Shown: piece by piece, positions 6,613-21,240 of the stretch
Numbering within the stretch: position 1 is the first letter of the stretch
How the letters are laid out: the number at the start of each line of letters is the position of its first letter
IMG/VR virus record: IMGVR_UViG_3300021957_000369
Location: 1-21,671 of that record
DNA: 21,671 nucleotides
DNA from: a virus
Strand: one strand, 5' to 3'
Translations under genes and position numbers: made by a program
Notes under the pieces: generated by a model
The model's input: only the letters and a program-made list of their open reading frames with translations
Database searches by the model: none
What the model was told of the DNA's origin: nothing

Positions 6613-7002
6613 TTATTTTCTCACTCTTACTCTAAGATTGACAATCTCGTTGTAACATTGAGGATCATAGATATTATCTATTATAAGTTTTGTTTCTTCT
6701 ATTTTTAGATCTGTCTTTGATTTATGGAAACTCAAAATCTCAAAAGAATAATTATCTTTGTTCTCTTGAATGGACTCTGATATTACACCTGACGAACTAC
6801 AGTACGATCTCCAATTAGAATCTTTAGTTACCTTTCTCTTTCTTTTCTTCCCCTTTAGAGGAGGTTTTGAAATGGTAGAGAATAGTTGCTTACAGCCAAT
6901 ATAAAACTTACCATCTGCGTTATCTGTTATACGATAGACAAACCCTATCGATTCTTCTGGTATTTCATTTGGGTGCTTCGCCCAATGACCCCAATCTATC
7001 AA
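6613..7002 (-). CDS. GIY-YIG nuclease-like protein
   Basis: A 129-residue protein. GFVYRITDNADGKFYIGCKQ (20-39) is a GIY-YIG module (FVY ... YIG). It is followed by a Lys/Arg-rich loop, SNWRSYCSSSG and an EETK helix, then CYNEIVNLRVRVRK, the layout of a short phage GIY-YIG family with conserved Tyr, Arg/Lys, Glu and Asn. Such proteins are nucleases; whether this one is a homing enzyme or a phage-core nuclease is unknown. It lacks the long C-terminal DNA-recognition region seen at 11914-12795. The start is TTG (7002), overlapping the upstream TGA as TTGA; no in-frame ATG precedes the motif. It is the last gene of the operon from 9275. Confidence 0.75.
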   Translation of the reverse strand: MIDWGHWAKHPNEIPEESIGFVYRITDNADGKFYIGCKQLFSTISKPPLKGKKRKRKVTKDSNWRSYCSSSGVISESIQENKDNYSFEILSFHKSKTDLKIEETKLIIDNIYDPQCYNEIVNLRVRVRK

Positions 7003-11913: not shown

Positions 11914-12795
11914 TTAAAGATCGATTTCTTCAAGTTTCCAACCTTTAAATTGGCCTTTTATTATACCTCTTCCATTTCTCATCGCTTTTAACAATACCGA
12001 CCTATGAATTCCACCTATGACTTCTTCACAAAATCTCTTCAACCCCCCTATTATCTCGTACACATCTCCGGTAGGAGAAGTTATTCTCCATTTCTTAGAA
12101 TTATGATTGCTACTCCCTGATGTTTTTTTCTTAAATGACTTTTTCCCCTCTTCACTCCTAGCCCATTTATCACCCGCCATAGAATTATTCCCTCCCTTTT
12201 GTGATTCTCTTAAAATTTCCTTGACATGCTCTGGGAATTCGTTATTTTTATAGAACTCCTTAAGACCTTGGCTTATTTTTTTCTTATGCTCATCTGTTTC
12301 TTTTCTGCCCGTTAACGTATTTCTTATCTTCTCTCTCGTTTCTTTTTTTCTAACTCGCTCCGCGTTGGCTTTAGAATTTTTTTCTCTATAGTCTTTACCT
12401 TCCCATAATTTCTTAATTTTTCTACCAACCTTTTCCGATACCTCTTTCGGCATTTTGTATCCACTAATACCTTCCCCCCCATCAGTGAAATTGGTCAAAG
12501 TTCCTCCATTATCAAAACGTCCTATAATTTTTATCATTTTTATTTCTAAATTAAATGCATCATTCTCAGACTCGAAGTGATTTATTTTTACGATTTTGGG
12601 AGCAAACCCTTCCCTAATCATCTTTTGTATTTTATTGTGTTTCTTCGTATTAGAAGTTCTCTTATCATTCAAATGCTCCTTATATCTATTACCTTTGCCT
12701 TTACCTACATAAAATGGTTCATAATCAAAAATATATTCGTCATATTCATATTTTCCTGGTTTTCTAGTATCTAAATAAACATACACATAAAACAT
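11914..12795 (-). CDS. Free-standing GIY-YIG homing endonuclease (Seg-like)
   Basis: A 293-residue protein. The N-terminal catalytic module starts MFYVYVYLDTRKPGKYEYDE and continues PFYVGKGKGNRYKEHL, a GIY-YIG motif (YVY ... YVG) with the catalytic Arg in GNRYKEHL. A Glu in the FNLEIKMIKIIG helix completes the site. The middle carries NUMOD3-like basic repeats (TLTGRKETDEHKKKISQGLK, then FPEHVKEILRESQKGGNNSM), which bind DNA. The C-terminus has WRITSPTGDVYEI then LKRFCEE, a late DNA-contact motif of this family. The start is ATG 12795, chosen because AAAGGGG lies 7 bases before it; an upstream reading begins 18 codons earlier without a ribosome site. Two TATAAATA elements lie upstream. It is inserted between the glycosyltransferase and uvsW, as a mobile endonuclease gene would be. 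Confidence 0.85.
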   Translation of the reverse strand: MFYVYVYLDTRKPGKYEYDEYIFDYEPFYVGKGKGNRYKEHLNDKRTSNTKKHNKIQKMIREGFAPKIVKINHFESENDAFNLEIKMIKIIGRFDNGGTLTNFTDGGEGISGYKMPKEVSEKVGRKIKKLWEGKDYREKNSKANAERVRKKETREKIRNTLTGRKETDEHKKKISQGLKEFYKNNEFPEHVKEILRESQKGGNNSMAGDKWARSEEGKKSFKKKTSGSSNHNSKKWRITSPTGDVYEIIGGLKRFCEEVIGGIHRSVLLKAMRNGRGIIKGQFKGWKLEEIDL

Positions 12796-12824
12796 ACCAT
12801 CCCCTTTAATCATATATCTCTTTG

Positions 12825-12832
12825 TATTTATA
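12825..12832 (-). promoter_or_regulatory. T4-type late promoter for the homing endonuclease (proximal)
   Basis: Exact TATAAATA on the minus strand, 30 bases upstream of the chosen ATG at 12795. Confidence 0.7.
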
Positions 12833-12853
12833 AAACACCAACACTTCAAGCAA

Positions 12854-18866: not shown

Positions 18867-18901
18867 AGCACTTGACAAACACCTTTTTGGTGTTATAAAT
18901 A
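18867..18901 (+). promoter_or_regulatory. Strong promoter upstream of the tmRNA, merged with a late element
   Basis: AGCACTTGACA at 18867-18877 contains a perfect TTGACA, followed by 16 bases and TATAAA (18894-18899); the same bases also form TATAAATA (18894-18901). The spacer holds a perfect inverted repeat AACACC ... GGTGTT. It could serve both sigma70 and the late sigma. It probably drives the tmRNA through the leader. Confidence 0.65.
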
Positions 18902-18963: not shown

Positions 18964-19389
18964 GGGTCTGATTTGGTTTCGCCTTTGTTGGTTTGAACTA
19001 GGTTGCGATATGAGGATTTCGTTGGCCTCATTAAAAAACGGAATAATAATAACTGGAAACAGTGTAAAAAACTACTCTCAAGACGATTTTAGCGCACTCA
19101 TGAACGAGATGTGCGACTCCGTTGAAGAAATGGTAGTTTAAATAACCAAGGAGGATGGTCTAAACAACCTAACTCCGACTTAACAAGGTAGATTTGACTT
19201 TCTTGTAACTTGTTAAGTAACCCACTAGAGAGAATCCTTCGTGCTAGGTAGAAGTAAAATACTTAGATCGTATTAGTTACAGTTTTGTTTGGTTTCTATT
19301 CTAATATTAAATTACATTAATCGAAATATTATCGTAGATGCTTAGGGATTTACTTATGAAGTAAGAGGGTTCGAGTCCCTCCAGATCCA
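18964..19389 (+). ncRNA. ssrA: tmRNA (SsrA), phage-encoded
   Basis: A 426-nt tmRNA, which rescues stalled ribosomes. Acceptor GGGTCTG (18964-18970) pairs with CAGATCC (19382-19388), followed by discriminator A. T-arm: GAGGG, loop TTCGAGT, CCCTC (19365-19381). The 5' TTGGTTTCG is tmRNA-like. PK1: GAGG/CCTC (19012-19015, 19026-19029) and ATTTCG/CGGAAT (19016-19021, 19039-19044), matching the E. coli order. P2: CTAGG (18998-19002) with CTTAG (19341-19345), and GCGAT (19005-19009) with ATCGT (19331-19335). A 10-bp stem pairs 19178-19187 with 19209-19218. The predicted resume codon is GGA (19055), 10 bases after PK1, giving a tag of 28 codons (GNSVKNYSQDD at the start, EEMVV at the end), stop TAA at 19139-19141. 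CCA is not encoded, so it must be added. A lone tRNA does not fit: no acceptor partner lies at tRNA distance. Confidence 0.9.
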
Positions 19390-19390
19390 C

Positions 19391-19849
19391 TTACATGTCG
19401 TAATCGACAGATATACCATCTTCTTGTTGGTATAACTTAACAAGATCATCATCGAAAGAAACAATATAATCGATGTTGGTCTTGCCTAGAGCAGAGATCT
19501 CACGGTTGTCATCATCATAATGAAGATCGACCCCTAATTTAACTAAAGAATCTGCTTTCAATTGGGAATTAGTATAATAAACCTCTGATTCTGGTAATCC
19601 ATTATCATCTAAAAAATCTGAGATTTGCTCACGATCCTGTGTGCTCTGTTGTCTTGAGGTTACTATTATTACTGTTCTACCTTTATTTAGGTGATCTTTA
19701 AATGCTTGAACATATGTTGGTCTTGGTATGGCACCATCGTATGTATTAAAAGAAAGAGTATTATCCATATCAAAACTCACCAATTTGATTTCTTCTTCTT
19801 TTTTGACAAGTCTATTACTTTTATTTTCGTTTAAAAATTCACTAAACAA
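19391..19849 (-). CDS. HAD-superfamily phosphatase
   Basis: A 152-residue protein. Motif I DMDNT (27-31) has the nucleophile and acid-base Asp pair. Motif II TSR is at 64-66, motif III Lys is probably K98, and motif IV YDDDN (111-115) supplies acidic metal ligands. No cap domain is obvious, so it is a small HAD. HAD phosphatases act on phosphorylated metabolites, nucleotides or polynucleotide ends; the substrate is unknown. The start is TTG at 19849 with a GAGGT ribosome site just upstream, and no ATG precedes motif I. A TATAAATA (19887-19894) drives it. Its stop is one base beyond the tmRNA 3' end on the opposite strand, so tmRNA and this gene converge. Confidence 0.8.
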   Translation of the reverse strand: MFSEFLNENKSNRLVKKEEEIKLVSFDMDNTLSFNTYDGAIPRPTYVQAFKDHLNKGRTVIIVTSRQQSTQDREQISDFLDDNGLPESEVYYTNSQLKADSLVKLGVDLHYDDDNREISALGKTNIDYIVSFDDDLVKLYQQEDGISVDYDM

Positions 19850-20211: not shown

Positions 20212-21240
20212 ATGGCAAGGTGTGTAGCAACTGATATTGGGACGGGATTTATTTCGTCAGCAGAAAAAGGCAAAGACGAAGGAAAGGTAGTCTTTAGAAA
20301 GGTCAGGGATTGCTTTTTTAAAGTAGACCCAAAGGAATTCTTAGGTGGAGCAAACCCAATGTTTGGGGAGAAGATGCTCAAGAAGACTGGTGCTCATTTT
20401 ATTAAAGTAAATGACACTCTCTATATCCTTGGAGACTCTGCTTATAAGATGGCAGGCACAGTCCACAAAGAAACCTTACGTCCTATGTCTAAGGGGGTTC
20501 TAAACCCTGATGAACCAGAAAGTGCCGTGATGGTTGGGGAACTAATTAAAGCGGTGTCAGGCAAGGCAGAATCACCAGACGATACTCTTTTCTTTTGTGT
20601 GCCAGCAGAACCAGTCGATGCGGAATTTGACGTAGAATACCATAGGGAGACATTGATTGAAGTGTTTTCTAAACTAGGTTATGAGAACATCAATGTCATG
20701 AATGAAGGTCTCGCGGTTGTATTCTCTGAGTTGTCAGAAGAAAACTTCACAGGCATTGGCATGTCCTTTGGAGCAGGTATGGTGAACGTGTGTTATTCCT
20801 TTATGGGAATGCCTGTGTTATCCTTTGCTATTTCAAGGGGTGGGGACTACATTGACCAAAGTGCAGCAAAGCAAGTCAATGATACAGCAAACACTATGAC
20901 CTTCGTTAAAGAAAAGGGTATGAGCATCAAAGATCCTAAAGACGAGAATGAAAAAGCAATTGCTATCTATTACAAGACACTCTTGAAGTACCTAGTTGCT
21001 CAAATCAAACATCTTTACAATAGCAAGGATAAGAAGGATCTTCCTAACTTGTTTGAACCTATTCCAGTTGTAGTGGCAGGTGGTACATCACTTGTAGGGG
21101 ATTTCATTGATGTTTTGAATGAAACCATTAAAGAAGAGGGTGATTTCCCTATCCCAGTAAGTGAAGTAAGACACGCAGAAGAACCTCTCTTTGCGGTTTC
21201 GCATGGTCTGTACCAAGCAGCTTTGTTAAATAGTGACTAG
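20212..21240 (+). CDS. Actin-like ATPase (Hsp70/actin fold)
   Basis: A 342-residue protein of the actin/ParM/MreB fold. Phosphate-1 loop: TDIGTGF (7-13). A strand FFCVPAEPV (127-135) matches the conserved P-A/E strand. NEGLAVVF (164-171) corresponds to the connect-1 motif. Phosphate-2 region: GIGMSFGAGMVNV (181-193). Adenosine motif: VVAGGTSLVGDF (287-298). Related proteins form filaments that move or segregate DNA. The canonical Asp at the start of the phosphate-2 loop (DxGxGT) is replaced by Ser185, so hydrolysis may be slow or lost. A strong AAGGAG ribosome site precedes the ATG. No partner adaptor gene is recognised nearby. Confidence 0.85.
   Translation: MARCVATDIGTGFISSAEKGKDEGKVVFRKVRDCFFKVDPKEFLGGANPMFGEKMLKKTGAHFIKVNDTLYILGDSAYKMAGTVHKETLRPMSKGVLNPDEPESAVMVGELIKAVSGKAESPDDTLFFCVPAEPVDAEFDVEYHRETLIEVFSKLGYENINVMNEGLAVVFSELSEENFTGIGMSFGAGMVNVCYSFMGMPVLSFAISRGGDYIDQSAAKQVNDTANTMTFVKEKGMSIKDPKDENEKAIAIYYKTLLKYLVAQIKHLYNSKDKKDLPNLFEPIPVVVAGGTSLVGDFIDVLNETIKEEGDFPIPVSEVRHAEEPLFAVSHGLYQAALLNSD

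Follow-up and report, generated by a model that had tools for sequence, protein, structure and literature searches.

A conserved tmRNA with an atypical tag in a T4-like phage, preceded by an orphan abiF RNA

Introduction

Genes for tmRNA have been reported in 402 of 18,146 phage genomes (about 2.3%), with the methylophage Melnitz among the carriers (PMC9004378). We found no literature report of what a phage tmRNA does for the phage. The abiF RNA is the antitoxin of AbiF/Abi_2, a HEPN RNase (PMC12373285; named AbiFr in PMC12737573), and PMC9964418 notes an abiF RNA in the cyanophage S-CREM1. Here, we describe a phage locus in which the two RNAs stand side by side. The DNA analyzed, called the window below, is the whole 21,671-nucleotide stretch of IMG/VR record IMGVR_UViG_3300021957_000369.

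Results

An earlier note on the window had described a T4-like genome with a tmRNA at positions 18964-19389. The T4-like assignment is supported by the core families detected (gp20 and gp21, portal and protease; UvsW; UvsY; and gp46), along with T4-type late boxes. No close relative was found by DNA match among 50,697 phage records, and the best UvsW and gp46 matches in that set are about 30% identical. Two IMG/VR contigs carry a syntenic tmRNA: L009, with a volactin 86% identical to that of the window (tmRNA, 108.5 bits), and L177, with a volactin 63% identical (tmRNA, 68.3 bits). In both, the tmRNA is upstream of the volactin gene in a window-like neighborhood, and gp46 lies on the other side of the tmRNA in L177, as it does in the window. 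The sequences of two further contigs from the same metagenome sample (L040 and L175) stop to one side or the other of the tmRNA locus and neither support nor oppose its conservation.

The one-piece tmRNA (ssrA) is encoded on the plus strand at 18964-19389. Rfam model RF00023 matches 18964-19392 (+) over 374 of 374 model positions, with 102.7 bits (E value, 1.8e-39) against a curated cut-off of 47 bits. The claim of a tmRNA is thereby confirmed, by the very model that the earlier note had proposed as a check. Position 19389 is the discriminator A and the end of the whole one-piece RNA. Because the bases that follow (19390-19392) are CTT, the CCA is not encoded and needs post-transcriptional addition. 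The 5' strand of the acceptor stem, GGGUCUG (18964-18970, +), pairs in full with CAGAUCC (19382-19388; 19382-19389 with the discriminator, +), including G3-U70, which is the alanine identity pair. The T-arm, GAGGG-UUCGAGU-CCCUC, occupies 19365-19381 (+), and the PK1 pseudoknot (19010-19044, +) lies upstream of the resume codon in the E. coli order; both are supported by Rfam and by pairing. PK1 consists of S1, AUGAGG/CCUCAU (19010-19015/19026-19031), and S2, AUUUCGUU/AACGGAAU (19016-19023/19037-19044). The acceptor stem, the T-arm, and the order of the PK1 elements had all been read correctly from the letters in the earlier note. The RNA folds better than its shuffles (z-score, -2.66). In its D-loop, UUCGCC stands in place of the Rfam consensus UUCGAC, which L009 retains, and the pseudoknots after PK1 fit the Rfam tmRNA model poorly and loosely.

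ARAGORN, the second program proposed as a check, made no tmRNA call on the window. It is also silent on the Rfam-positive phage tmRNAs of L002, L005, L008, L015, L009, and L177; because these other Rfam-accepted RNAs are missed too, its silence is not specific to the RNA studied here.

Comparison of the three syntenic tmRNAs shows where the structure has been preserved. A G3-U70 acceptor is present in the window, L009, and L177. The window's U-A at acceptor pair 4-69 corresponds to C-G in L177, and its outer T-stem pair, G-C, to C-G in L009. PK1 S1 and S2 pair in all three, and S2 pairing is retained despite different letters. A canonical T-arm is missing from the L177 tmRNA (L177:3764-3807, CUCCUAGGGCAGACUCGGA), whose acceptor stem is intact.

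Several features of the surroundings deserve mention in their own right. A gene for a HAD-like phosphatase (19391-19849, minus strand) ends at the 3' end of the tmRNA. It looks like a later insertion, because it is absent from L009, where the next gene begins directly after the tmRNA. Searches with the HAD protein and the acidic neighbor protein gave no match. The volactin-family actin-like protein, here found in phages, is encoded at 20212-21240 in the window and at L009:9318-11489 (minus strand), where an intein carrying an HNH endonuclease splits it. The window also has two GIY-YIG endonuclease genes, at 6613-7002 and 11914-12849 (SegE-like and LEM-3-like). An attempt to guess the host through bacterial tmRNAs sharing the 5' end was abandoned: four genome contigs fit the pattern, none of them with a tmRNA.

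PK1 is followed by AAUAAUAACU, which leads into the resume codon GGA (Gly) at 19055. The tag frame (19055-19141, +) is assigned by the Rfam register, the conserved AAUAAUAA upstream, and conservation in L009; it comprises 28 codons, GNSVKNYSQDDFSALMNEMCDSVEEMVV, and closes with TAA (19139-19141). In the remaining two frames of the window, stops come after 3 and 12 residues, and the resume frame is the only one open to a tag-length stop in both the window and L009. Translation resumes at a Gly codon in three of three tmRNAs (window, L009, and L177). The L009 tag, GTFANMDQDTFSSMMNSIADSVEEEAVLV, is long like that of the window, whereas that of L177 is short (GESQFAMAA). The C termini are MVV in the window, VLV in L009, and AMAA in L177, so that the window tag is without the usual C-terminal AA proteolysis signal. 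Such a signal is usual, not universal, and so does not strictly define a tmRNA. Since L009 has a long tag and L177 a short, AA-ended one, either the tag was lengthened and its AA end lost within this phage group or the reverse took place.

The window and L009 tags align with a score of 62; shuffled sequences gave a mean of 4.5 (standard deviation, 7.2), and none of 2,000 scored as high. Over the 27 aligned codons, there are 12, 8, and 18 differences at codon positions 1, 2, and 3, a pattern as would be expected of a translated peptide. Judged from these alignments, the long tag is under selection as a protein in the window and L009. Neither this odd tag nor the abiF RNA in front of the tmRNA appears in the earlier note.

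Upstream of both RNAs, a -35-like TTGACA box (18872-18877, +; read from the sequence) is followed after 16 nt by TATAAATA (18894-18901, +), a T4-type late box that overlaps a -10-like TATAAA. The late box is conserved in L009, with TTGACT at equal spacing, and the two spacer sequences are unrelated. The window contains 16 copies of TATAAATA against 2.1 expected, mostly just before genes, which is where T4 late promoters sit. Among the listed contexts of these sites, inspected by eye, a TTGAC box was seen only at the one in front of the abiF RNA. Because the TTGACA box joins TATAAATA at this unit and was not seen at the other sites, the arrangement suggests early plus late expression. The proposal in the earlier note that the tmRNA acts late in infection is therefore supported by the late box only in part, given the TTGACA box combined with it. 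The transcript likely begins immediately ahead of the abiF hairpin and continues into the tmRNA. Because a general consensus promoter scan accepts only T as the last base of the -10 box, it missed this promoter. At 18878-18895, the spacer forms an inverted repeat (AACACC-TTTTT-GGTGTT) that is not conserved in L009 and is possibly an operator or a product of chance. In L177, the abiF hairpin is absent, and the tmRNA follows a U-rich leader of similar kind and a promoter of the TTGACA type.

Between promoter and tmRNA lies an abiF RNA (Rfam RF03085; 18912-18948, +; 40.7 bits; E value, 0.00019; curated cut-off, 37 bits), then the U-rich GGGGTTTTCTTT. The distance from abiF RNA to tmRNA is 15 nt in the window (15 to 16 nt over the window/L009 pair), and the RNA at the same place in L009 scores 42.0 bits. 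An A-U pair of the outer stem in the window is G-C in L009, and the loop core GCCUCUNANCNAUGC is kept. A scan flagged the hairpin with its U-rich end as terminator-like. The abiF RNA is an orphan: no Abi_2 gene (PF07751) was detected in the window or its relatives (the positive control, phiC2, was found at 7.8e-51), and the downstream abiF/Abi_2 gene that marks an AbiF type III toxin-antitoxin system is thus absent from the window. Stable RNAs C and D of T4 were tried as relatives of the abiF RNA and gave no match. Phage sk1, reported to have a region protecting against AbiF (reference 112 cited in PMC12737573), was considered as a precedent and set aside, as sk1 has no abiF RNA.

IMG/VR was scanned for the abiF loop core, and 80 records were taken from among the matches listed; 47 of the 80 pass the RF03085 cut-off. 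An Abi_2 gene was found in 0 of 49 records searched. Among the 47 matches, a tRNA, in most cases tRNA-Arg(UCU), starts within 12 nt downstream of 13 abiF RNAs, compared to 0.31 expected from tRNA density. All but one of the 13 fall into one similarity cluster and therefore represent few independent events; L065 (tRNA-Met), L114, S-CREM1, and the window/L009 pair are separate from it. Many other phage abiF copies among the matches listed have no tRNA after them. In the tRNA-Arg(UCU) group, the orphan abiF RNA is 3 to 8 nt before the tRNA (L093, L075, L062, L083, L067, L089, L080, L113, L112, L132, and L130), and in several of these contigs, it heads a tRNA cluster. In L114, an unrelated phage contig, a permuted tmRNA begins 5 nt after an abiF RNA (L114:7820-8128). 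The isolated phage S-CREM1 has its abiF RNA 4 nt before tRNA-Gly, and no Abi_2 was found in its complete genome; the accessible part of PMC9964418 mentions neither the orphan status nor the position before a tRNA. Several phages that are unrelated to one another, and in which no AbiF gene was found, thus have an orphan abiF RNA directly in front of a tRNA or a tmRNA.

Discussion

The analysis shows the RNA at this locus and its structure, that three phages conserve it at one place, and that its tag frame is under selection. We consider it probable that 18964-19389 is a working phage tmRNA that is borne by host SmpB and adds a 28-amino-acid tag ending in VV. Based on sequence features, we infer its expression, processing, charging, use of SmpB, and freeing of ribosomes during infection. 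The abiF RNA and the tmRNA would probably be cotranscribed from the one promoter at about 18872-18901, after which host RNase P would cut the 5' end of the tmRNA, and host enzymes would trim it and add CCA. Once charged with alanine through G3-U70, the tmRNA would be delivered to ribosomes that have stalled on broken mRNA, with host SmpB and EF-Tu as its carriers, and translation would resume at GGA to append the phage tag, keeping ribosomes free while mRNA is destroyed in infection. Use of host SmpB is compatible with the sequences, because a search of the window and its four relatives, all of them fragments, turned up no SmpB. Candidate benefits to the phage are a phage-specific tag and the rescue of ribosomes from cut mRNA, singly or together.

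What the abiF RNA contributes is a separate question. The plainer answer, to which we give slightly less than an even chance, is that the hairpin only serves stable phage RNAs as a 5' leader, terminator, or processing signal and has no effect on AbiF. Its terminator-like, U-rich end is consistent with this, as are the similar U-rich leader without a hairpin before the L177 tmRNA and the frequent position of abiF hairpins 3 to 8 nt before tRNAs. However, the loop core is kept though neither a leader nor a terminator needs it, and many phage abiF copies have no tRNA after them. We put forward, more tentatively, a two-RNA counterdefense cassette, in which the orphan abiF RNA would bind host AbiF and hold it inactive and the copromoted tmRNA would free ribosomes stalled on cut RNA, with tRNA-paired cassettes in other phages. 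The presence of the abiF RNA suggests that it and the tmRNA may answer one problem, that of host RNases attacking translation. If so, the two RNAs may form a small kit by which the phage keeps host protein synthesis running. The placement of orphan abiF RNAs ahead of tRNAs and tmRNAs suggests more widely that phage stable-RNA clusters may in some cases be counterdefense units, an idea that a single short RNA and a single toxin would suffice to test.

For the tmRNA itself, the lack of a C-terminal AA means that the degradation half of the pathway may differ from that of E. coli. It is conceivable, although we consider it rather unlikely, that the tmRNA frees ribosomes while its long tag, with its VV end, would be recognized poorly by ClpXP or would be a signal for another protease, so that phage proteins are spared or redirected. 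The MVV and VLV ends of the window and L009 point this way, whereas the more distant L177 ends in AMAA; nearly all tags that ARAGORN printed for other phage tmRNAs end in AA, and the extended tag appears to be selected as a protein. Yet long AA-ended tags occur in phages L027, L030, and L038. That the tmRNA is mainly a competitor, titrating SmpB or EF-Tu from the host tmRNA as proposed for DS6A, seems improbable. RNA of the DS6A type, with the tRNA-like part only, inhibits endogenous tmRNA (PMC11915505; PMC4131195), and the lack of an SmpB gene in the phage fragments would fit such a role, but the full tag frame and PK1 are under selection, and a mere competitor needs neither. A decaying tmRNA acquired by chance from a host, which the weak match of the later pseudoknots and the ARAGORN miss might suggest, is already disfavored, and very strongly so, by the shared locus in three phages, the compensatory changes, and the conserved tag. 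A working tmRNA with a translated tag is therefore the reading that we retain, and its conserved atypical tag offers a direct handle on the role of a phage tmRNA.

A phage-borne tmRNA is no new kind of element; it is already known. Like that of Melnitz, the tmRNA studied here is an ssrA gene in a T4-like phage beside a promoter of its own, with no phage SmpB seen in the window. It differs in being one-piece, with a Gly resume codon, a long VV-ended tag, and an abiF RNA in front, whereas the Melnitz tmRNA is two-piece and comes with a glutamine riboswitch (PMC9004378). With E. coli ssrA and RF00023, it shares the G3-U70 acceptor, the T-arm, PK1, a tag frame, and a match to the whole model, but its 28-amino-acid tag is not AA-ended, its CCA is unencoded, and its later pseudoknots match weakly. 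The RNA in front has the hairpin and loop core of RF03085 and exceeds the curated cut-off; in contrast to AbiF systems, there is one RNA copy, no abiF gene in the available sequence, and a tmRNA as the next gene. S-CREM1 offers a close parallel for this arrangement. In that T4-like phage, in which no Abi_2 was found, an orphan abiF RNA stands immediately ahead of the gene for a stable RNA, although this is a tRNA inside a tRNA cluster rather than a tmRNA. As far as our search shows, both the unit shared by an abiF RNA and a tmRNA and the conserved long tag without an AA end appear to be new.
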